Below are positions 22,957 through 36,172 of a DNA stretch of 64,000 nt, piece by piece; position 1 is the first letter of the stretch, and each line of letters starts with the position of its first letter. A program made the translations under genes and the position numbers. The DNA is taken from assembly GCF_007828865.1 (NCBI RefSeq), contig NZ_VIVK01000001.1, positions 496,001 through 560,000 of the forward strand, read 5' to 3'. The notes beneath the pieces are model-generated. The model saw only the letters and a program-made list of their open reading frames with translations, was not told the DNA's origin and searched no databases. The DNA comes from Kribbella amoyensis (GTDB lineage: Bacteria > Actinomycetota > Actinomycetes > Propionibacteriales > Kribbellaceae).

Positions 22957-23856
22957 TCAGGCTGTTGCCGTCAAGGTCCCCAGAGCGACCGCCACGCGAC
23001 CGTCCGCGGCCGCGAGGGCTTCTCGGGCTGCTGGGATGGGGGTTCCGGTGAGGAGGTGGACCAGGGCCGGCTTCAGCTCGCCTTCGGCTGCTGTCAAAGC
23101 TTCGGCGCTGGCCTCCGGGGTGGCTCCGGTGGCTTCGGCGAGGATTCTCAGCATCCGGCCGCGGAGTTTGTTGTTGGTGGCAACCATGTCGACCATCAGG
23201 TTCGACCAGGTACGGCCGAGCTTGATCATCAGGGTGGTGGAGAAGGCGTTCAGGATCATCTTCTGCGCCGTCCCCGCCTTCAACCGGGTCGAGCCCGCGA
23301 TCACCTCGGGACCGGTATCGGCCGCGATCACGATGTCGGCCAGCGGGGCGAGCGGCGCGTCCGGGTTCGACGTCACCAGGGCCGTGACGGCGCCGGCTGC
23401 CCGGGCCGCGCGGAGGGCACCCGCGACGTACGGGGTGCTGCCCGAGGCGGCCAGGCCGATCACCACGTCGCGGTCGGTCACCTCGGCCGCGTCGGCGGCG
23501 CCACCGGTTTCGGAGTCCTCGACGTTCTCGACGGCGCGGAGCAACGCCTCCATGCCGCCGGCGTGGTGCGCCACGACCAGGTCGGCGGGGGCGTGGAAGG
23601 TGGGGAGGAGCTCGGCGGCGTCCAGGACCGCCAGGCGGCCGGACGTCCCGGCGCCGAAGTAGTGCACGCGGCCGCCGTTGCGGACCGCCTCGACGGCGGC
23701 GTCGACGGCTCGGGCCAGTTCGGGGAGGACGGCGTTGACGGCACCCGCCACCCGGGCGTCCTCCGCGTTGACCATCCCGAGGATCTCGGTGGTGCCCACC
23801 GCATCGATCGCGAGCGTCCTCGGGTTGCGCTGCTCCGTGGGTGTGATCACACCCAC
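22957..23856 (-). CDS. murQ: N-acetylmuramic acid 6-phosphate etherase
   Basis: Cleaves the lactyl ether of MurNAc-6-phosphate to give GlcNAc-6-phosphate and D-lactate, the committed step of MurNAc recycling. 299 residues, family length, single SIS domain: YFGAGTSGRLAVLDAAE at 67-82 with the catalytic Glu 82, the second Glu in GGMEALLRAVENVEDSE, GLAASGSTPYV for phosphate binding, and KMILNAFST. A GTG start at 23856; a GTG two codons later is possible. It lies 26 bases after murR, as last gene of the salvage cluster. Confidence 0.95.
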   Translation of the reverse strand: MGVITPTEQRNPRTLAIDAVGTTEILGMVNAEDARVAGAVNAVLPELARAVDAAVEAVRNGGRVHYFGAGTSGRLAVLDAAELLPTFHAPADLVVAHHAGGMEALLRAVENVEDSETGGAADAAEVTDRDVVIGLAASGSTPYVAGALRAARAAGAVTALVTSNPDAPLAPLADIVIAADTGPEVIAGSTRLKAGTAQKMILNAFSTTLMIKLGRTWSNLMVDMVATNNKLRGRMLRILAEATGATPEASAEALTAAEGELKPALVHLLTGTPIPAAREALAAADGRVAVALGTLTATA

Positions 23857-23882: not shown

Positions 23883-24785
23883 TCAATTCTGTGGGTCGTT
23901 GACGGAACCCTTCACGCGGTGCCCTCGCACGGCGCTCGCGGTCTCCTCCAGCGCCTTCCGCGCGTCCGGCAGCACGGACTGTGCGACCCCGATGAACAGG
24001 CAGTCGATCACCGTCAGCTGAGCGATCCGGCTCGACATCGCGCCGGACCGGTACGTCGTCTCGCGGGCGGCCGTGGTCAGCACCAGATCGGCCGTCTGGG
24101 CGAGCGGCGAGCGGGGGAAGTTGGTCAGCGCAACCGTGGTGGCGCCGCGCTTGCCGGCCTCCTCGAGCGCCTCGATCACCTCGACCGTCGCCCCGGTGTG
24201 CGAGATGCCGATCGCGACGTCGCCCTCGCCGAGCAGCGCCGCGCTGGTCAACGCCACATGGACGTCGGACCAGGCGAACGCGACCCGGCGGATGCGGTGC
24301 AGCTTCTGCTGCAGGTCGAGCGCCACGAAGGAACTGGCCGCGGAGCCGTACAGGTCGACCCGCGGTGCCTTGGCGACCGCGGCGACGACCTTGGCGAGCG
24401 CGTCCACGTCGAGCTGCTGAGCGGTCTCGCGGACCGCCCGTTCGTCGGCGAAGGCCACCTTGCCGACCACGTCGGCCAGCGAGTCGCCCGGCTCGATCTC
24501 ACCCCCGACCTCGGGTCTCGCACTCTCCTGCGCCGACTGGGCGGCCAGCTGCAGACGGAGCTGCGGATAGCCCGGCACGCCGATCTGCTTGCAGAACCGG
24601 ATGACGGTGGTCTCCGAGGTGGACGCCACCTCGGCCAGTTCCGAGATCGTCATGGCCGCGACTCCGCCCGGGTCCGCGAGGACCGCGTTCGCCACCCGCT
24701 GCTCGGCCGGGGCCAACGCGGGCATCACCGCGCGGACCCGGACCAGCAGCGGCCCCGTGGGTTCAGGAGACGTCGAGGAAGTCAT
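23883..24785 (-). CDS. murR: RpiR-family regulator of muropeptide recycling (MurR-like)
   Basis: 300 residues. N-terminal RpiR helix-turn-helix (TISELAEVASTSETTVIRFCKQIG) and C-terminal SIS sugar-phosphate domain (IGISHTGATVEVIEALEEA). In Escherichia coli and Bacillus, MurR binds MurNAc-6-phosphate and represses the recycling genes; here it lies directly before murQ and after the hydrolase genes, so the same role is inferred. The ATG at 24785 gives MTSSTSPEP; the longer frame lacks a ribosome site. A candidate binding palindrome lies upstream of nagZ at 32241. Confidence 0.88.
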   Translation of the reverse strand: MTSSTSPEPTGPLLVRVRAVMPALAPAEQRVANAVLADPGGVAAMTISELAEVASTSETTVIRFCKQIGVPGYPQLRLQLAAQSAQESARPEVGGEIEPGDSLADVVGKVAFADERAVRETAQQLDVDALAKVVAAVAKAPRVDLYGSAASSFVALDLQQKLHRIRRVAFAWSDVHVALTSAALLGEGDVAIGISHTGATVEVIEALEEAGKRGATTVALTNFPRSPLAQTADLVLTTAARETTYRSGAMSSRIAQLTVIDCLFIGVAQSVLPDARKALEETASAVRGHRVKGSVNDPQN

Positions 24786-24820: not shown

Positions 24821-26548
24821 TCACCGACGCGAAAGTCTCCAACCCGAGGCGGTAAATGACTCAGGCGTTCGTTCTCCGTCGAAGAGCACCCGGTGACCGG
24901 CGCTGATCTTCACGCCGTCCACGTACACCCCACGGCCTTGGTACAGCGGGTCGGAGGTGTAACGCCACCGGACCGTCTGGTCACCGCCGGGCAGCTCCGC
25001 GGACACCTGGTGCCAGTGCCGATCGCCGGATCCGCTGATGGTGCCGTCGTGGTCGATCACCGTGCCCCGGTCGCGGACCGTGAACGGAACCTTCGTCCAA
25101 GTGGTCCCGTCGGCCGAGGACTCCAGGTACAGCAGGTCGGTGTCCTCGGTGTCCACGAACAGGTCGAAGGCCAGCTTGGCCCCTGCGGCCGGGACGGCGA
25201 CCCGGGCGTCCAGCGTCGTCGTACTGGCGTCGGTGGTACCGGAGAACCAGGCGTCCTTGCCGTGCCGCGGTCCCACGCCCAGGGACAGCGCGAGGCCCTG
25301 GGCGACGGCGCGACGGGCCGGGTTGTTGCTGCCCCAGTTCCGGCTCGGGTGGACCCGGTTGGAGAGCAGGATCGCGAACGAGCGGGAGTCGAAGTCGATC
25401 ACCAAGGACGTGCCGGTGTACCCGGTGTGGCCGGCGGTGCGCGGCCCGGACAGCCCGGACATGTACCAGCGCTGGTTCAGCTCGAACCCGAGCCCGTGGT
25501 CGTTGCCCGGGAACGCCTGGTTGAAGTTGGTGATCATCGCGGTCACGGAGCTCTCCTTGAGGATCCGCGCCTGCCGGTAGCTGCCGCCGTTGAGGAACGC
25601 CTGCGCCAGCACGGCGAGGTCGTCGGCCGTGCTGAACACGCCCGCGTGCCCGGCGACACCGTCCAGCGACCACGCGTTCTCGTCGTGCACCGAGCCCCAG
25701 ACCATCCCGCGCGCCGGTGCGGTCTGGTACTCCGTGGCCGCGATCCGTTGCTTCTTCTTCGGGTCCGGGTTGTACCCGGTGTCGCGCATCTGCAGCGGCT
25801 TGGTGATGCCGTCCGCGACCAGCTTGTCCAGCGTCTTGCCGGACACCCGGTGCGCGACCTCGCCGAGGGAGATCAGGTTCAGATCGCTGTAGAGGTACGT
25901 GGAGCCTGGCGTACTGCTCGGCTTCGCGGTCAGCGCCATCTGCAGCCGCGAGGCCGGATCGGGCCGGGCGCTCCACAACGGCAGCCAGGACGGCAGCCCG
26001 GTGGTGTGGGTGAGCGCCTGCCGGACCGTGATCGATTCCTTGCCGTTCTCGGCGAACTCCGGCACGTACTGCGCGATCGGCGCGTCCAGGGCGACCTTGT
26101 TCTTCTCGACCAGTTGCAGCACCACGATCGAGGTGAACAGCTTGGACACCGAGGCCATGTCGAAGATCGTGTCGGTGCGCATCGGGATCTGCTGGTCGGC
26201 CGGCAGCTCGGTGCCGTTGCCGTCGGCGTACTTGACCGCCATCCCGGTCGCCTCGCGGGTGACCACCTTGCCGTCGTGGCCGAGCAGCGTGACCGCGCCG
26301 GCGTACAGCGGCTTGACCGTGCCGTTCGGCTTGGTCCAGCCCTCGACCTGGGCCAGCGCGGCGTCGATCGGCGCCGGGTCCAGGCCCGCCTTCGCCGGGG
26401 TGGCGTCGCGGAGCAGGGTGGACTTCGGCGCGTAGCCCGAGAAGGGCTGGTCGAACCGTCCGGATTTGTTGCCCGCGGCAACCGCAGGGCCGGCCATGGT
26501 GAGCATCACCACGGACACTACCGCGATTCCGGCTGCTCTAATCCTCAC
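24821..26548 (-). CDS. Secreted serine hydrolase of the beta-lactamase/PBP fold (AmiE-like)
   Basis: 575 residues. A signal peptide (1-25) precedes a beta-lactamase-fold domain: SVSK at 133-136 (SxxK), YSDLN as the second motif, and HTGYTG in place of KTG. A C-terminal beta-sandwich region of about 150 residues is of unknown function. In the Bacillus subtilis mur cluster a serine hydrolase of this fold, AmiE, removes peptide from MurNAc-peptides; synteny suggests the same here. A DD-carboxypeptidase or esterase is the alternative. The GTG start overlaps the namZ stop by four bases (GTGA). Confidence 0.8.
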   Translation of the reverse strand: MRIRAAGIAVVSVVMLTMAGPAVAAGNKSGRFDQPFSGYAPKSTLLRDATPAKAGLDPAPIDAALAQVEGWTKPNGTVKPLYAGAVTLLGHDGKVVTREATGMAVKYADGNGTELPADQQIPMRTDTIFDMASVSKLFTSIVVLQLVEKNKVALDAPIAQYVPEFAENGKESITVRQALTHTTGLPSWLPLWSARPDPASRLQMALTAKPSSTPGSTYLYSDLNLISLGEVAHRVSGKTLDKLVADGITKPLQMRDTGYNPDPKKKQRIAATEYQTAPARGMVWGSVHDENAWSLDGVAGHAGVFSTADDLAVLAQAFLNGGSYRQARILKESSVTAMITNFNQAFPGNDHGLGFELNQRWYMSGLSGPRTAGHTGYTGTSLVIDFDSRSFAILLSNRVHPSRNWGSNNPARRAVAQGLALSLGVGPRHGKDAWFSGTTDASTTTLDARVAVPAAGAKLAFDLFVDTEDTDLLYLESSADGTTWTKVPFTVRDRGTVIDHDGTISGSGDRHWHQVSAELPGGDQTVRWRYTSDPLYQGRGVYVDGVKISAGHRVLFDGERTPESFTASGWRLSRR

Positions 26549-27831
26549 CGGTGCGCTCCCTTGTACAGCAGGTACTTGGCCCGCCGCGCGGTCCACGCGT
26601 CGGTCTCGGACTTCCAGGCCGCGACGATCTCCTCGGCCGAGGCGCCCGCGGTCAGCATGGTGCGGAACCGGTCCGACCCGGTGAGCAGGTCGATCCAGCG
26701 GCCGGGCGGGTTCTCGGCCCGCCAGGCGAACTCGGGGTACAGCTTCTTCGCCTCGACGATCATGTGGGTGGCCGCGACGATCGCCTCGACCTTGCCCGGG
26801 TCGGTGATCTGGACCTGGACGCCGCCGCAGAGCACGTTCGCGTTCTTGCTGATGAACGGGGTGAAGTACGCCTCCCGGAAGTCCACGCCCGGGATGTTCT
26901 TCGCCTGCAGCGCCTGGGCCCAGCGGTAGTCGACGTACGGGGCGCCGATCAGCTCGAACGGCCGGGTGGTACCACGGCCCTCGGACATGTTGGTCGCCTC
27001 GAACAGACAGGTGCCCGCGTACAGCAGCGCGGTGTCCGGGGTCGGCATGTTCGGGCTCGGCATCACCCAGGTCAGGCCGGTCTCACCGAACAGTTGCTCG
27101 CGCTTCCAGCCCTTCAGCTGGATCACCTGAAGCTCCTTCAGCCGGGCCCCGTTCGCGTCCAGCGGCAGGTACTCCGCGTTGAACAGCCGGGCCAGCTCGC
27201 CCACGGTCATCCCATGCTGCTGGATGATCTCCTCCTTGCCCACGCCGGAGGTGTACCCGGGCTTGAGCATCGGGCCGCGCGCGTACCCGCCGACCGGGTT
27301 CGGCCGGTCGAGCACGACGAACTTCGCGCCGGTCCGGACCGCGGCCAGCATCGCCTCGTACATGGTCCAGATGTAGGTGTAGAACCGGGACCCGACGTCC
27401 TGGATGTCGAACACCACGGTCTCGACGCCGGACTTGGTGTACAGCGACGCCAGCTTGTCCGCGTTCGCGCCGTACGCGTCGTAGACCATGATCCCGGTCC
27501 GCGGGTCGACGTGGTCGCCCTCGGAACCACCGGCCTGCGCGCTGCCGCGGAAGCCGTGCTCGGGACCGAACACGGCGGTCACGTTGACCTGCCCGGACGT
27601 GTGCATGGTGTCGACGATGTGGTTCAGGTCCTCGAGGATGCCGGTCGGGTTGCTGATCACCCCGACCTTCTGGCCGGCCAGCGCCCGCCAGCCGCTGTCG
27701 GCCAGCGCCTGCGCGCCCGTGATCACCCCCTTGCCGTGCTTGGCGGGCTCGGCCGCCGAGGCGGCGGGGACGTCGATCAGCGGTGCGGCGGCGAGCGCAC
27801 CGGCTCCGGCCAGCAGACTGCGGCGCTTCAT
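26545..27831 (-). CDS. namZ: Exported exo-beta-N-acetylmuramidase NamZ (DUF1343)
   Basis: 428 residues. The N-terminus MKRRSLLAGAGALAAAP is a Tat-like signal. The DUF1343 domain has its hallmark blocks: VFGPEHGFRGSAQAG, VFDIQDVGSRFYTYIWTM, VLDRPNPVGG, WVMPSPNMPTP and EGRGTTRPFE. Members of this family (GH171) release MurNAc from the non-reducing end of peptidoglycan fragments. Cluster position between nagZ and the amidase-like gene matches Bacillus. The start at 27831 has a short upstream extension with no support. Confidence 0.92.
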   Translation of the reverse strand: MKRRSLLAGAGALAAAPLIDVPAASAAEPAKHGKGVITGAQALADSGWRALAGQKVGVISNPTGILEDLNHIVDTMHTSGQVNVTAVFGPEHGFRGSAQAGGSEGDHVDPRTGIMVYDAYGANADKLASLYTKSGVETVVFDIQDVGSRFYTYIWTMYEAMLAAVRTGAKFVVLDRPNPVGGYARGPMLKPGYTSGVGKEEIIQQHGMTVGELARLFNAEYLPLDANGARLKELQVIQLKGWKREQLFGETGLTWVMPSPNMPTPDTALLYAGTCLFEATNMSEGRGTTRPFELIGAPYVDYRWAQALQAKNIPGVDFREAYFTPFISKNANVLCGGVQVQITDPGKVEAIVAATHMIVEAKKLYPEFAWRAENPPGRWIDLLTGSDRFRTMLTAGASAEEIVAAWKSETDAWTARRAKYLLYKGAHR

Positions 27832-27856
27832 CAGGGTTCTCCTCCAGGCAGGGGGT

Positions 27857-30400
27857 TTACGGGCGGAAGGACAGGTCGGCCACCACGGGGCGGTGGTCAC
27901 TGGCCGCAGACTCGGGGGGAACGGTTGCCCGCCGGACGCGGAAGCCCGCACCGACGGTGACGAAGTCGATCCGCTTGACCGGATCGACCGCGGGATAGGT
28001 GAGCGGGCCGCCGACGGTCGTCTCCGCCGCGGTCCAGCTGTCGGTCAGGCGCTTCCACAGTTTGGCGAGCTCGGGAGCGCCAGCCTCGGCATTGAAGTCG
28101 CCGGTGATGATCTGCAGGTCCTTCTTCGGGTCCCGGGCCAGGATCTTCACCGTGTCGTCCACCTGCGCGCGCCGGACGGCCGGGTCGGCCCGGTAGTCCA
28201 GATGCGTGACGTAGACGTGGACGCGCTTGCCGCGCACCTCCAGCTCGGCCTCCAGGAACCCGGGCGCCGGCTTCGGTACCGGGTTCGGGTCCTGGGTGGA
28301 CAGCCTGGTGATCGGGTGGTTCTCGGTCCGGACCAACGGGAACCGGGACAGCACACCCACGCCGTACTGCCGGCGCGGCTGCCCGGCGGCGGGCGGGTCC
28401 AGGTCGTAGATCGGCGCGAACCCGTGGTACATCCCGAGTTTGCCGGCCAGCTCGGCCAGGGTGTCCCGCCACTCGCTCCGGGCGTCCCAGTGGACGTCGA
28501 CCTCCTGCAGGCCGATCACGTCCGCGTCGAGCGCCTTCAACGCCTGCGCGGTCCGGTCCAGATCGAACACGTTGTCCTGGCCGGCCCCGGCATGAACGTT
28601 GTACGAGGCAACGGTCAGCCGGGTGACCCGCGGGTCGAAGGTGAGCCCGTGACCGAACGGGTACAGCGTCCGAGTAGCGTCCGGCTGGGCCGGGATCGCG
28701 ACCGGGAGCTTGCCGGTCGGCGCGATCTCGCCGTACAGCACCTTCGCGAGCGCCTCCAGCGAGACGGCCGCGTACGAGTACGTCGCGAGCGTGGTCTGCG
28801 CCGAGCCGAAGTACGCGACGTCGTACGGGTCCCGGACCGCGACCACGATCACCGGGCGGCCGGTCGCGAGCAGCGCGTTCACGAGCTTCTGCTGCTTGGC
28901 CTGCTTGTCGGTGACGGCCGTGTCCCACGCCTTCATGGTGAGCACGACGGTGAGGTCGGCGTCCTTCGCGGCCGCCACGGCGTCGTCGATCTTCGCGTCG
29001 GTCGGCGTCGCCCCGGTGTCCTTGACGATCGCGGTCGCGCCGCGACCCTGCAACGCCGTACCGAGGGCCGTCGGCAGGTACCCGGCGACCAGGATCCTGC
29101 GGGAAGCCGGGGACAACGGCAGCAGGCCCGCGTCGTTCCTCAGCAGGGTGGTGGTGTGGTCCGCGATCTCCTGCGCGACCGCGTAGTTGGCCGGGGTACC
29201 GACCACCTTGGCGACCTGGGCGAGATCGACGTACGGGCGGTCGACGACGCCGGTCCTCACCTTCAGCTTGAGGATCCGCTCGACGCTCTGGTCGATCCGC
29301 TGCTCGCTGATCCGGCCGCTGCGGACCGCGTCGAGCACGGAGTTGTACGCCAGGCCCGGGTCGACCGGCATGAGCAGCTGGTCGACGCCCGCCTCGAGCG
29401 CGCGCAACGGGATCTCGGCGTCGCCGTACTTGTCCCGAACGCCTTTCATACCGAGCGAATCGGTGATCACGACACCGTCGAACCGGAGCTGCTCGCGCAG
29501 GATCCCGGTGAGGATCGGCCGGCTCAACGTCGCCGGGTCCTCGGACGGGTCGAGCGCCGGCACCACGATGTGCGCGGTCATGATCGAGTCGATCCCGGCC
29601 CGGATCGCCGCGTCGAACGGCGGCCGGTCGATCGCGTTCCACTCGTCCCGGGTGTGGCTGATCACCGGGATGCCGGTGTGGCTGTCGGTCGCGGTGTCGC
29701 CGTGGCCCGGGAAGTGCTTGGCGGTCGAGACGATCCGGCCGTCCCGCTGGTACCCGGTGACCTGGGCGGCGGTGAGCTCCGCGACCAGGGCCGGGTCCGA
29801 GGAGAACGAGCGGACCCCGATGACCGGGTTCAGCGGGTTCACGTTCACGTCGGCGACCGGGGCGAAGTCGGTGGTCACGCCGACCGCCTTCAGCTCGCGG
29901 CCGCCGATCCCGCCCGCCCGGCGCGCGTACTGCGCCGAGCGGGTCGCGCCGAGGGCCATCGCCCCCGGGAACTGCGTGGCCGGCGGCCCGACCCGGAACA
30001 CGACGCCGTGCTCCTGGTCGGTGCTGATCTGCAGCGGGATCCCCGTGTTCTGCAGGGAGGCGCTCTGCAGGCCGTTCGACAGCCGCGCGATCTGCTGCGG
30101 GTCCTTCACCGAATCGGTCCAGGCGAAGTAGATCACCCCGCCGAGGTGGTACTTGCGAACCACCTCGGCCGGCGTCGCCACGCCGTACAGGCTGGTGTTG
30201 CGGGCATCGGCCGTGTCCGCCGTCGGGCCGTACGCGTAGCAGACGAAGAGCTGGCCGACCTTCTGCTCCAGCGACATCCCGGCGAGGGTGTCGCGGACCC
30301 ATCTGCTGGTCGCCGCCTGGGCCTGGCCGGTCCCGGCCAGCGTCGTCCCGGCGACGGCGGCCGCGGCGAGTCCGAGGGTCTGACGTCGCGTCAGCTCCAT
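27857..30400 (-). CDS. Tat-exported NagZ fused to an endonuclease/exonuclease/phosphatase domain
   Basis: 847 residues. Tat signal MELTRRQTLGLAAAAVAG. Residues about 33-590 form a GH3 beta-N-acetylglucosaminidase of the NagZ type: KHFPGHGDT from 228, DSH at 239-241 as acid/base dyad, and the nucleophile Asp 314 in VITDSLGM. Residues about 595-847 form an EEP-fold phosphoesterase with complete motifs: SYNVHAG, LQEVD, THLDY, TGDFNAE and SDHRP. The junction falls where the sister NagZ stops (YPFGHGL). The GH3 part would release GlcNAc; the EEP substrate, some exposed phosphodiester or phosphomonoester, is unknown. It starts two bases after the upstream nagZ stop. Confidence 0.9.
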   Translation of the reverse strand: MELTRRQTLGLAAAAVAGTTLAGTGQAQAATSRWVRDTLAGMSLEQKVGQLFVCYAYGPTADTADARNTSLYGVATPAEVVRKYHLGGVIYFAWTDSVKDPQQIARLSNGLQSASLQNTGIPLQISTDQEHGVVFRVGPPATQFPGAMALGATRSAQYARRAGGIGGRELKAVGVTTDFAPVADVNVNPLNPVIGVRSFSSDPALVAELTAAQVTGYQRDGRIVSTAKHFPGHGDTATDSHTGIPVISHTRDEWNAIDRPPFDAAIRAGIDSIMTAHIVVPALDPSEDPATLSRPILTGILREQLRFDGVVITDSLGMKGVRDKYGDAEIPLRALEAGVDQLLMPVDPGLAYNSVLDAVRSGRISEQRIDQSVERILKLKVRTGVVDRPYVDLAQVAKVVGTPANYAVAQEIADHTTTLLRNDAGLLPLSPASRRILVAGYLPTALGTALQGRGATAIVKDTGATPTDAKIDDAVAAAKDADLTVVLTMKAWDTAVTDKQAKQQKLVNALLATGRPVIVVAVRDPYDVAYFGSAQTTLATYSYAAVSLEALAKVLYGEIAPTGKLPVAIPAQPDATRTLYPFGHGLTFDPRVTRLTVASYNVHAGAGQDNVFDLDRTAQALKALDADVIGLQEVDVHWDARSEWRDTLAELAGKLGMYHGFAPIYDLDPPAAGQPRRQYGVGVLSRFPLVRTENHPITRLSTQDPNPVPKPAPGFLEAELEVRGKRVHVYVTHLDYRADPAVRRAQVDDTVKILARDPKKDLQIITGDFNAEAGAPELAKLWKRLTDSWTAAETTVGGPLTYPAVDPVKRIDFVTVGAGFRVRRATVPPESAASDHRPVVADLSFRP

Positions 30401-30402
30401 CG

Positions 30403-32226
30403 TCACCAGCTCAGCCCGTGGCCGAACGGGTACAGCGGCGTCGCGGGCTGACCGGCGACCGGGATGTCGACCGGGAGCTTGCCGGCCGGCGCGATCTCGC
30501 CGTACAGGACCTTGGTGAGCGCCTCCATCGACACGGCCTGGTAGCCGTAGGTGGCGACGTACGTCGGCGCGGCGTCGAAGTACGCGATGTCGTACGGGTC
30601 GCGGACGGCGACCACGATCACCGTCTTGCCGGTGGCGAGCAGGTCCTTCACCAGCTTCTGCTGCTTGGCCTGCTTGTCGGTGACAGTGGTGTCCCATGCC
30701 TTCTGGGTCAGCACCACGGTGACGTCGTTGGCCTGCGCCTTCGCGACCGCGTCGGCGATCGCCGCGTCGGTCGGTGCCGCGCCGGTCTGCGCGACCGTGG
30801 TGGTGGCGCCGCGCTTGGCCAGGCTGGTCGCGAGCGACTGGGTGGTGGTGACGCCCCAGCCGGTGACCAGGACCTTGCGGGCCTCGTTGCTCAGCGGCAG
30901 CGTGTTCGCGTCGTTCTTGACCAGGGTGATCGACTTGTCGACGATCTGCTGCGCGGTGGCGAGGCTGGCCGGCGTACCGACCGTGGTGGCGACCTTGGCC
31001 GGGTCGACGAACGGCTGGAACGCGACGCCGTTCTTCACCTTCGACAACAGGATCCGCAGCAGGCTCTCGTCGATCCGGCGCTCGCTGATCCGGCCCGACT
31101 TCACCGCGTCCACGACCGCCTTGAACTGCACGTCCGGCGCCGGCGGCAGCAGCAGCTGGTCCGCCCCGGCCTCGATCGCGCGAACGGCCACCTCGGCGTC
31201 GCCGTACTTGGCCCGCACCGCCGCCATCTCCAGCGCGTCGGTGATGATCAGGCCGCGGAACTTCAGCTGGTCGCGCAGCACGCCGGTCAGGATCGGCTTG
31301 CTCAACGTCGCCGGGTCACCCGACGGATCGAGCGACGGGACGACGATGTGCGCGGTCATGATCGAGTCGATGCCGGCCTTGATCGCGGCCTCGAACGGCG
31401 GCCGGTCGATCGTGTTCCACTCTTCGAGGGTGTGGTTGATCGTCGGCAGCGAGGTGTGGCTGTCGTCCCGGGTGTCACCGTGACCGGGGAAGTGCTTCGC
31501 GGTCGCCATGATCCGGGCGTCCTGCTGGTACCCCCGGGTCTGCGCGACCGTCAGGTCGGAGACCAGCTTGGGGTCGCTGGAGAACGACCGGACCCCGATC
31601 ACCGGGTTCAGCGCGTTCACGTTCACGTCGGCGACCGGCGCGTAGTCCTGCCGGATCCCCATCGCCTCCAGCTCGCGCCCGGTGATCCCGGCCGCGGTCC
31701 GCGCGTCCGCCGTACTGCGAGCCGCGCCGTGCGCCATGTTCCCGCCGAACTGGGTGGCGGGCGGGCCGATCCGGACCACGACGCCCTGCTCCTGGTCGGT
31801 GGCGATCGTCAGCGGGACGTGGAGGCCGGTCTTCAGGGCCTCGGCCTGGAGCTGGTTCGAGTACGTCGCGAGCTGGGTCGGGTTCTGCACGTTGTCGCGG
31901 GCGTTGAAGTAGATCCACCCGCCCGGCTTGTACTTCGCGACCACCTCGGCCGGCGTGGCGACGCCGTACAGGCTGGTGTTGCGGGCATCCGGCTTGGACG
32001 CGTCCGGCCCGTAGGCGAACAGGACGAACATCTGCCCGATCTTCTCCTCGAGCGACATCCCGTGGATGACCCGCCCGACCTGCTGCGCGGAGGTGAAAGC
32101 CTGCGGTGGAACCTTCGGCTCGGGCGGCGGCGCACTCACCGCGGCGGTGGGCGCCAGCGCGGCCACCGTGGCGGTGGCGGTGCAGGCGGCGAGCGTGGCG
32201 ATGGCAGAGCGGCGCAATGCGGACAT
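30403..32226 (-). CDS. nagZ: Secreted beta-N-acetylglucosaminidase NagZ (GH3)
   Basis: 607 residues with a signal peptide (1-32). GH3 motifs: KHFPGHG at 244-250, DSH at 255-257, nucleophile Asp 330 in IITDALEM; a C-terminal alpha/beta sandwich domain ends YPFGHGLSW. The secreted, two-domain form corresponds to the Gram-positive NagZ and not the small cytoplasmic one of enterobacteria. It shares long blocks with the GH3 half of the next gene, so the pair arose by tandem duplication. First gene of the salvage operon. Confidence 0.93.
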   Translation of the reverse strand: MSALRRSAIATLAACTATATVAALAPTAAVSAPPPEPKVPPQAFTSAQQVGRVIHGMSLEEKIGQMFVLFAYGPDASKPDARNTSLYGVATPAEVVAKYKPGGWIYFNARDNVQNPTQLATYSNQLQAEALKTGLHVPLTIATDQEQGVVVRIGPPATQFGGNMAHGAARSTADARTAAGITGRELEAMGIRQDYAPVADVNVNALNPVIGVRSFSSDPKLVSDLTVAQTRGYQQDARIMATAKHFPGHGDTRDDSHTSLPTINHTLEEWNTIDRPPFEAAIKAGIDSIMTAHIVVPSLDPSGDPATLSKPILTGVLRDQLKFRGLIITDALEMAAVRAKYGDAEVAVRAIEAGADQLLLPPAPDVQFKAVVDAVKSGRISERRIDESLLRILLSKVKNGVAFQPFVDPAKVATTVGTPASLATAQQIVDKSITLVKNDANTLPLSNEARKVLVTGWGVTTTQSLATSLAKRGATTTVAQTGAAPTDAAIADAVAKAQANDVTVVLTQKAWDTTVTDKQAKQQKLVKDLLATGKTVIVVAVRDPYDIAYFDAAPTYVATYGYQAVSMEALTKVLYGEIAPAGKLPVDIPVAGQPATPLYPFGHGLSW

Positions 32227-32240
32227 GACCGACCCCTCAG

Positions 32241-32253
32241 GTAATTGAATTAC
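32241..32253. promoter_or_regulatory. Candidate MurR operator
   Basis: GTAATTGAATTAC, a perfect palindrome with six-base arms, 14 bases before the nagZ start codon and just downstream of the predicted transcription start. It resembles the TGTAATT-AATTACA type of site known for the RpiR-family repressor HexR. Strikingly AT-rich for this genome. Confidence 0.6.
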
Positions 32254-32274
32254 AACCGTCTCCCCCGCACGCGA

Positions 32275-32304
32275 AAGTTACCCACGCCCAAACTCGGGGG
32301 TCAA
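32275..32304 (-). promoter_or_regulatory. Candidate nagZ promoter
   Basis: Minus-strand TTGACC (32299-32304) and TAACTT (32275-32280), 18 bases apart. The predicted start near 32268 leaves about 42 bases of leader that include the palindrome at 32241. Confidence 0.55.
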
Positions 32305-32574: not shown

Positions 32575-33522
32575 TCAGGTGGTGGGGAGGGCTTGGTGGA
32601 GTCTGGTGGTGAGGGTTTTGAGGTGGGTTTCCAGTTCTGGTGGGGCCGCTTGGAGGTGGAAGGGGTGGCCCAGGAGGGCTGGGTAGAGGAGGAGTTCGTC
32701 GAGGGAGTTGGAGCCGGCTCGGAGTTGGCAGGTCCGGTCGTCGATCGGTTCGACGGTGGCTACGGTGCCGGCTAGCTGGTCGGCGACGACTTCGGCTGGG
32801 GCTTGGATGTGGAAGGTGGCTTGGTAGCGATAGCCCCCGGACGCGATGCCTTCGCGGGTGCGGTCCAGGTCGGGAGCTTCGCGGGGCTGGAAGCGGGGAC
32901 CCGTGGGGATGCGCGGGGTCAGGCGGTCCAGGCGGAACGTGCGCCAGTCCTCGCGATCGAGGTCCCACGCGATCAGGTACCACCGGCGCCCCGTGTGCAG
33001 GAGGCGGTGCGGCTCGGTGGTACGGACGGACGCCGTGCCGTCGTGGCCCAGGTAGTCGAACCGCAGTCGCTCGTGGTTCCGGCAGACCGTGGCGACCGTC
33101 ATCAGCACGGCCGGGTCGACGGTCGCGCCGGTTGCCGGGGTCACGGCGACGACGCGCAGCAGGTCGACGCGATGCCGTAGTCGCGACGGCAGGACCTGCT
33201 CCAACTTGGTCAGGGCGCGCAGCGACGATTCCTCGATGCCGGTCACGTTCCCGGTCGCCGCGGCCCGCAGACCGATCGCGACCGCCACGGCCTCCTCGTC
33301 GTCCAGCAGCAGCGGCGGAAGCGCGGCCCCCGCACCGAGGCGGTACCCCGCGACTCCCGGGACCGCCTCGACCGGATAGCCGAGCGAGCGCAGCTTGTCG
33401 ATGTCACGGCGGACGGTCCGCACCCCGACACCGAGCTCGTCGGCCAGGACGGCGCCGCTCCACTCCCGCGGCGACTGCAGCAGGGAAAGCAGTTTGAGCA
33501 GACGAGCCGAGGTCTCCAACAT
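32575..33522 (-). CDS. HTH-WYL transcriptional regulator
   Basis: 315 residues. N-terminal winged helix of the HTH_11/DeoR type (GAVLADELGVGVRTVRRDIDKLRSLGYPVEA), a WYL domain containing the eponymous residues in RRWYLIAWD near 180, and a WCX-type C-terminus. WYL domains sense small ligands or nucleic acid. It is divergent from the epoxide hydrolase gene across a 63-base gap that holds an extended inverted repeat, so the two are very likely regulator and target. Confidence 0.9.
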   Translation of the reverse strand: MLETSARLLKLLSLLQSPREWSGAVLADELGVGVRTVRRDIDKLRSLGYPVEAVPGVAGYRLGAGAALPPLLLDDEEAVAVAIGLRAAATGNVTGIEESSLRALTKLEQVLPSRLRHRVDLLRVVAVTPATGATVDPAVLMTVATVCRNHERLRFDYLGHDGTASVRTTEPHRLLHTGRRWYLIAWDLDREDWRTFRLDRLTPRIPTGPRFQPREAPDLDRTREGIASGGYRYQATFHIQAPAEVVADQLAGTVATVEPIDDRTCQLRAGSNSLDELLLYPALLGHPFHLQAAPPELETHLKTLTTRLHQALPTT

Positions 33523-34825: not shown

Positions 34826-36172
34826 TCAGAGCTTGAGGGCGGTGGCGACTGTTTCGGCGAGGGAGTGAGCGATCTCGGTGGCCGCGTCGGAGGACTCCGC
34901 CTCGACCATCACGCGGACCAGCGGTTCGGTCCCGGACGGGCGGAGCAGGACGCGCCCGGTGTCGCCGAGCCGAGCAGTGGCCGCTGCCACCGCGGACTGG
35001 ACGGCCGGGTCGGTCCCCGCGCGGGACTTGTCGACGTCGGGGACGTTGACCAGGACCTGCGGGAGCCGGGTCATGACGCCGGCCAGGTCGCGCAGGCTCT
35101 TGCCCGTCTGGGCCAGCCGGGCCAGCAGCATGACCGCGGTCAGGGTGCCGTCGCCGGTGGTGGCGTGGTCGGACAGGATGACGTGACCGGACTGCTCGCC
35201 GCCGAGCTTGTGCCCGCCGGCCTTCATCGCCTCCAGCACGTACCGGTCGCCGACCTTGGTCTGCTCGACCGCGATCTGCTCCCGGACCATCGCCTGGACG
35301 AAGCCCAGGTTGCTCATCACGGTCGCCACCACGGTGTCGTTGGACAGCCGGCCGCCGTCGCGCATCGCCAGCGCCAGGATCGCGAGGATCTGGTCGCCGT
35401 CGACGAACTCGCCGGTGCTGTCCACCGCCAGGCAGCGGTCGGCGTCACCGTCGAGCGCGATGCCCAGGTCGGCGCCGTGGCCGATCACCTCGCGCCGCAG
35501 TCCCTCCATGTGGGTGGAACCGCAGTCGAGGTTGATGTTCAGGCCGTCCGGCTCCGCGGCGTGCGTGACCACCTCGGCGCCGAGCCGGCGCAGTGCCTCG
35601 GGGGCCGTCCCGGAGGCGGCGCCGTTGGCGCAGTCGATCACGACCTTGAGGCCGTCGAACCGGTTGGGCGACGACCGGACCAGGTGCGAGACATAGGTCT
35701 CGAAGCCCTGCCCGTCGTCGAGCACGCGGCCGACCTTCGCACCGGTCGGGCGCTGCCACTCCTCGCCGACGCGGGCCTCGATCGCGTCCTCGATCACGTC
35801 GTCGAGCTTGATCCCGCCACGGGCCAGGAACTTGATGCCGTTGTCCGGCATCGGGTTGTGGCTGGCGGACAGCATCACACCGAGGTCGGCGCCGGTCGAA
35901 CCGGTCAGGTACGCGACGGCGGGCGTCGGCAGGACGCCGAGCTTGAACACGTCGACGCCGGCGCTGGCCAGACCGGCCACCACGGCAGCTTCCAGGAACT
36001 CTCCACTGGCCCGCGGATCCCGGCCCACAACGGCGCGCGGCCGGTGCCCTTCGAAGGCACCGGCCTCGCCGAGTACGTGAGCTGCCGCGACCGAGAGGTC
36101 GAGCGCCAGCTCAGCGGTCAGGTCCACGTTCGCCAGGCCACGGACACCGTCCGTGCCGAACAAACGCGCCAT
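34826..36172 (-). CDS. glmM: Phosphoglucosamine mutase
   Basis: Converts glucosamine-6-phosphate to glucosamine-1-phosphate for UDP-GlcNAc. 448 residues: [12 protein letters not shown] start, phosphoserine loop SASHNP (Ser 104), metal loop DGDADR, sugar loop around GGEQSGH, and C-terminal phosphate loop [11 protein letters not shown]. It follows rpsI by nine bases, the standard rplM-rpsI-glmM order. glmS is not in the window. Confidence 0.97.

Follow-up and report, generated by a model that had tools for sequence, protein, structure and literature searches.

Downstream of the promoter of a six-gene cluster in Kribbella amoyensis lies a perfect 13-bp palindrome, which raises the question of what protein reads it and to what effect. 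The original prediction took it for an RpiR-type operator, placed just after a nagZ promoter and read by the regulator that the cluster itself encodes. In the window (the whole 64,000-nt stretch of DNA that was analysed), the palindrome is present as described, with six perfect pairs flanking a single central base; at 32241-32253 the plus strand reads GTAATTGAATTAC and the minus (leader) strand GTAATTCAATTAC. It is the sole match at up to two mismatches in the window (0.04 expected), and a search of the whole 8.12 Mb genome with GTAATTNAATTAC at up to one mismatch returned this single site (reversed-pattern control, 0). The palindrome, hereafter O2, is very probably one of two operators for MurR, a tetramer of which would repress the operon from O1 and O2 together and be released by MurNAc-6-phosphate. 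That reading comes from sequence comparison, as set out below.

The predicted promoter, TTGACC-N18-TAACTT, was found on the minus strand, and the leader runs in the order TTGACC, 18 nt, TAACTT, 21 nt, GTAATTCAATTAC, CTGAGGGGTCGGTC, ATG (Table 1). O2 would occupy about +16 to +28 of the transcript, counted from a presumed start near 32268, and directly precedes the ribosome-binding site. A generic sigma-70 consensus scan flagged 0 promoters, because TAACTT is a poor TATAAT, and our assignment of the promoter rests on conservation.

Table 1. Positions of genes and predicted regulatory features in the window.
Feature	Position	Strand	Basis	Remark
GH3 hydrolase, NagZ-like beta-N-acetylglucosaminidase	30403..32226	-	domain/profile matches	first gene
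Second GH3 domain fused to endonuclease/exonuclease/phosphatase (EEP) domain	27857..30400	-	Pfam-type domain matches	
NamZ exo-beta-N-acetylmuramidase	26545..27951	-	domain match	
Serine beta-lactamase-fold protein, PBP4b-like, with MAM-type domain	24821..26596	-	domain/profile matches	
MurR, RpiR-family regulator, HTH_6 + SIS	23883..24785	-	domain/profile matches	possible TTG start 24842
MurQ, N-acetylmuramic acid 6-phosphate etherase	22957..23856	-	domain/profile matches	
-35 box TTGACC	32299..32304	-	leader alignment	18 nt to -10 box here, 17 nt in most of genus
-10 box TAACTT	32275..32280	-	pairwise identity 0.99, 38 genomes	
Ribosome-binding region CTGAGGGGTCGGTC	32227..32240	-		precedes ATG at 32224-32226
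O2, 13-bp palindromic operator (predicted)	32241..32253	-	scans, leader alignment	
O1, second 13-bp operator copy (predicted), GTGGGTAACTTTC	32273..32285	-		over -10 box; 32 bp from O2

The six genes overlap or are separated by short gaps. By its predicted products, the operon (nagZ, GH3-EEP, NamZ, PBP4b-like, MurR and MurQ) is a muropeptide-recycling cluster, common in actinobacteria; in a named-genome scan, a co-directed GH3 gene lies upstream in 75 of the best 80 MurR relatives. NamZ is, we presume, also the product of B. subtilis ybbC. The first product is a GH3 hydrolase that matches beta-N-acetylhexosaminidase, but the NCBIfam score of this match (162.6 bits) falls under the cut-off of 207, so that 'nagZ' is a fair working name, unproven. 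The start of the GH3-EEP gene is probably ATG 30400 (or GTG 30406), within a longest ORF that reaches 30697. At locus L149 (G290), the GH3 and EEP parts appear to be separate stretches, with 65% identity for the second. Next upstream of the leader, on the same strand and before glmM (34826-36172), lies an HTH_11/WYL regulator (32575-33522), which our explanation does not need.

The regulator inside the cluster does belong to the RpiR/MurR family by its Pfam domains, with HTH_6 at 58.0 bits against a cut-off of 28.3 and SIS at 83.9 bits against one of 25. Its SIS domain shares the motif ETxxRSxxMSxRxAQ with E. coli MurR (7en5/7en6 chains), and this motif is absent from two other RpiR-family structures (8k3b/8ju9). 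The protein scores 129 bits for NCBIfam MurR and 154.9 bits for HexR, below the respective cut-offs of 408 and 296. A MurR match occurs in all 38 Kribbella genomes (88-100% identity). Together with the conservation of the leader and the presence of MurQ in the operon, the HTH_6 + SIS regulator makes an RpiR-type operator for the in-cluster protein the best-supported reading of the palindrome.

How far the site is kept was examined in these 38 genomes. O2 is exact and in single copy at the same GH3/nagZ promoter in 30 of them (control, 0 in all 38), and the remaining eight leaders carry variants with one or two changed bases; as the original prediction requires, the palindrome is retained at the orthologous nagZ promoter in all 38. 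Mean pairwise identity among the 38 leaders is 0.96 for O2; its surroundings are variable, at 0.48 in the first 12 nt of the spacer, 0.49 in the 8 nt that precede O2 and 0.54 in the 14 nt that follow. The distance from the -10 box to O2 is 20 nt in 12 leaders and 21 nt in 26.

A second conserved block lies over the -10 box, whose 5-nt upstream flank has a pairwise identity of 0.95 in the 38 leaders. This block contains O1, a predicted second copy of the operator, which the original account overlooked while it placed O2 correctly. In all 38 Kribbella leaders O1 and O2 are 31-32 bp apart, three helical turns, and a spacing of 31-32 bp recurs in the set of other genera. When O1 and O2 were compared in the same register in 19 leaders, they agreed at 6.89 of 13 positions on average, vs 4.23 after local permutation of the O2 region (0/5000 permutations). 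For this comparison the genera were represented by their first and then by their last locus, and likeness was computed for both choices; Streptoalloteichus had dropped out of the O1 analysis owing to length. The left arm of O1 is poorly palindromic (GTGGG vs CTTTC), and part of its conservation reflects promoter function, because O1 overlaps the -10 box.

O1 occurs once in the K. amoyensis genome. It is exact in 33/38 Kribbella genomes at 34 places, 33 of them at the nagZ promoter and one elsewhere in K. catacumbae. There, a second promoter ahead of PBP4b-murR-murQ has TTGACC, then GTGGGTAACTTTC, then an O2-like word, GCAATTTAGTTAC, 32 bp on. The recycling operon of K. catacumbae is interrupted by a minus-strand 438-aa ORF (L164 5884-7409), ATPase-like by eye, and its downstream half is headed by an apparent copy of the entire nagZ leader, O1 and O2 included.

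Does the arrangement extend beyond Kribbella? An exact scan of the order for TGTAATTNAATTAC found it in 27/245 genomes, all Kribbella, and so position rather than sequence was used for comparing other genera. From the 80 loci, five without a co-directed GH3 gene (L201, L221, L225, L235, L243) and 15 from Kribbella were left out; the non-Kribbella set held 65 leaders (60 plus 5 from further lineages). The promoter could be anchored in 60/65, the exceptions being L162, L204, L222, L223 and L242; inspection of L162 by eye nevertheless shows a palindrome, GTGAAATTTTCAC, at 20 nt. Most anchored leaders have an AT-richer palindrome-like word 20-22 nt after the -10 box, such as GTAAGAATCTTAC in Kibdelosporangium, GTGAATCGTTCAC in L149, GTGACAAATTCAC in L153 and GTGGAAAGTTCCC in Saccharothrix. 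Across 18 representatives, each from a different genus or lineage, the palindromy of 13-mers is maximal 19-24 nt after the -10 box, with a peak of 3.56 of 5 pairs (4-nt window) vs a shuffle maximum of 3.22 (0/500 shuffles reach the peak); most of these genera, judging by their names, presumably belong to one family and so are not independent. Palindromes at the place of O2 are weak in four of the 18 (Saccharopolyspora and Herbihabitans, 1/5 pairs; L144 and Kutzneria, 2/5). The promoters of the 18 other actinobacterial genera and lineages tend to have a 13-bp palindrome of other sequence where Kribbella has O2, at 20-21 nt from the -10 box. Both in the 38 Kribbella leaders and in the other genera, the sites sit at promoters of MurQ/MurNAc recycling genes. 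An unguided palindrome count over 360-nt upstream stretches gave an excess of arms of 6 at many spacers, mostly even, and was of little use because GC-rich palindromes swamp the signal. Labels are probably wrong for three public records (L167, L194 and L235): contig and leader mark 'Streptomyces sp. SID13031' as a Kribbella, the leader of 'Rhodococcus rhodnii NRRL B-16535' resembles that of Kibdelosporangium, and the actinobacterial cluster turns up on a contig labelled 'Melainabacteria'.

Some murR genes lie outside such a cluster. At 19/23 of these loci, an N3-spaced 13-mer palindrome (at least 4/5 pairs) is found close 5' of the start codon; the commonest word, GAAAGAAACTTTC, covers a likely -10 box. 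The four exceptions are L127, with an unrelated palindrome; L129, with only GAAAGAAACGTTG; L201, with none; and L128, with none qualifying nearby, where GAAAGAAACTTTC occurs farther upstream (L128 is from the same genome as L155). At L125 both arms of the word GTAAGAAACTTAC are the same as those of Kibdelosporangium O2, GTAAGAATCTTAC; this locus was tallied as stand-alone, and a GH3 homologue lies some 1.6 kb farther upstream (as L152). Since the gene behind the palindrome varies and MurR is constant, the motif follows MurR.

The closest known parallel is the E. coli murR-murQ divergon, where an RpiR regulator likewise governs MurQ and PBP4B is in the operon (PMC5061867, PMC12713135). The published model for E. 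coli has a MurR tetramer bridging two sites separated by 17 bp and spanning 47 bp in all (PMC12713135), which places the site centres about 32 bp apart and agrees with the number, the gap and the proposed bridging of the predicted Kribbella sites. Among distances of 20-44 bp between murR and murQ of K-12, the best direct repeat is at 32 bp; as this is one sequence, chance by itself would give such agreement about 1 time in 12. The two systems differ in that the E. coli sites, of other sequence, reportedly overlap both the -35 and the -10 box, whereas those of Kribbella fall on the -10 box and at about +16 to +28. E. coli also has murP and a divergent layout, while the six Kribbella genes include no PTS gene and murR lies inside the operon. 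The B. subtilis cluster murQ-murR-murP-amiE-nagZ-ybbC, as given in the cited text, also joins MurR, MurQ and NagZ, in another gene order and with a PTS transporter and an amidase (PMC5061867). S. coelicolor SCO4308-SCO4307 (MurR-like and MurQ) is an actinobacterial murR-murQ pair too, but the cited passage on this putative operon names no nagZ/NamZ genes (PMC5061867); genes of this layout have a single palindrome, which covers the likely -10 box.

Two other RpiR regulators offer comparisons at the level of the operator. RccR binds a 15-bp site, TGTAGT-N3-ACTACA, with the same 6-3-6 geometry, but has other target genes and KDPG as ligand (PMC5489143). For HexR, the cited consensus TGTAATTAAATTACA (PMC11906056) matches TGTAATTCAATTACC at 13/15 positions. 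The close resemblance to HexR sites claimed earlier holds for Kribbella, but not for other genera, which spell GTGAA-N3-TTCAC-like or GTAAG-N3-CTTAC-like words. HexR, moreover, governs central carbon metabolism, whereas the Kribbella targets are peptidoglycan recycling genes and their regulator falls below the HexR cut-off. Literature text searches found no printed operator for actinobacterial MurR; searches for GTAATT-N-AATTAC returned only the HexR paper for N=A, 16S rRNA/microbiome papers for N=C, and nothing for N=G or T.

Could MurR act from O2 alone, as a simple downstream roadblock of the kind described for HexR, the GTGGGTAACTT block being only an extended -10 element? O2 is the clearer palindrome of the two, a HexR site downstream of its promoter is thought to repress in the cited account (PMC11906056), and a -10 box needs conserving regardless. 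However, O1 still matches O2 when the -10 hexamer is set aside and its other seven positions are counted (4.32 vs 2.62 permuted; 0/5000), GTGRGTAACTTNC occurs once in the genome and so is not a common promoter form, and stand-alone murR palindromes sit over the likely -10 box. We therefore regard action from O2 alone as unlikely. If MurR uses both sites, it might still activate or act in both directions, as S. pneumoniae NanR of the RpiR family is reported to activate (PMC12713135) and an E. coli K-12 record lists MurR as a dual regulator; sites on and 3' of the -10 box would leave a classical activator no room, which makes this very unlikely.

It is highly improbable that another protein, such as an RpiR paralog about 52% identical to MurR and encoded elsewhere, is the one that recognizes the palindrome. 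Besides MurR, 33/38 Kribbella genomes do have a relative at E <= 1e-60, but the five genomes without it (G007, G027, G028, G030, G031) retain the site, four of them exactly, and the promoters of 4/4 paralogs inspected have another word, TGAGAAT-N2-TTCACA. That word lies close to the start codon of the paralog in the four genomes inspected (L245 1440-1510) and probably represents another RpiR operator built in the same way. The idea that the palindrome acts at the mRNA level, by forming a hairpin close to the ribosome-binding site, draws on its place in the leader 14 nt 5' of the start codon and is scarcely credible. Folded by itself, the palindrome attains no better than -0.4 kcal/mol, and 199/200 shuffles fold at least as well as the leader, on which ground we rejected the hairpin; in addition, the stand-alone murR word covers a likely -10 box near the start codon and is therefore probably not transcribed.

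We infer, then, that MurR binds both sites, bridges them as a tetramer, represses rather than activates and responds to MurNAc-6-phosphate as inducer. In the proposed mechanism, MurR as a dimer of dimers would occupy O1 and O2 on the same helix face, 31-32 bp apart, covering the -10 box and the transcript start and so blocking RNA polymerase; because the blocked promoter is that of the operon, murR itself would be repressed too. With muropeptides being cleaved extracellularly, MurNAc-6-phosphate would accumulate inside the cell. This substrate of MurQ would bind the SIS domain and release MurR, and the operon would be expressed until MurQ had consumed the signal.

With moderate confidence, we extend this reading to the family: MurR repressors from E. 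coli to actinobacteria may share a fixed two-site clamp of 31-32 bp, with operator sequence and place at the promoter free to drift and the -10 box swallowed in actinobacteria. If the clamp reading is true, the -10 region would be near-frozen across genera because one half of the operator is also the core promoter, and the conserved feature of this repressor family would be a spacing set by the MurR tetramer rather than a sequence. For actinobacterial MurR, the comparison provides a concrete candidate two-site operator, and we propose that the regulon for the scavenging of cell-wall sugars consists of this one operon.
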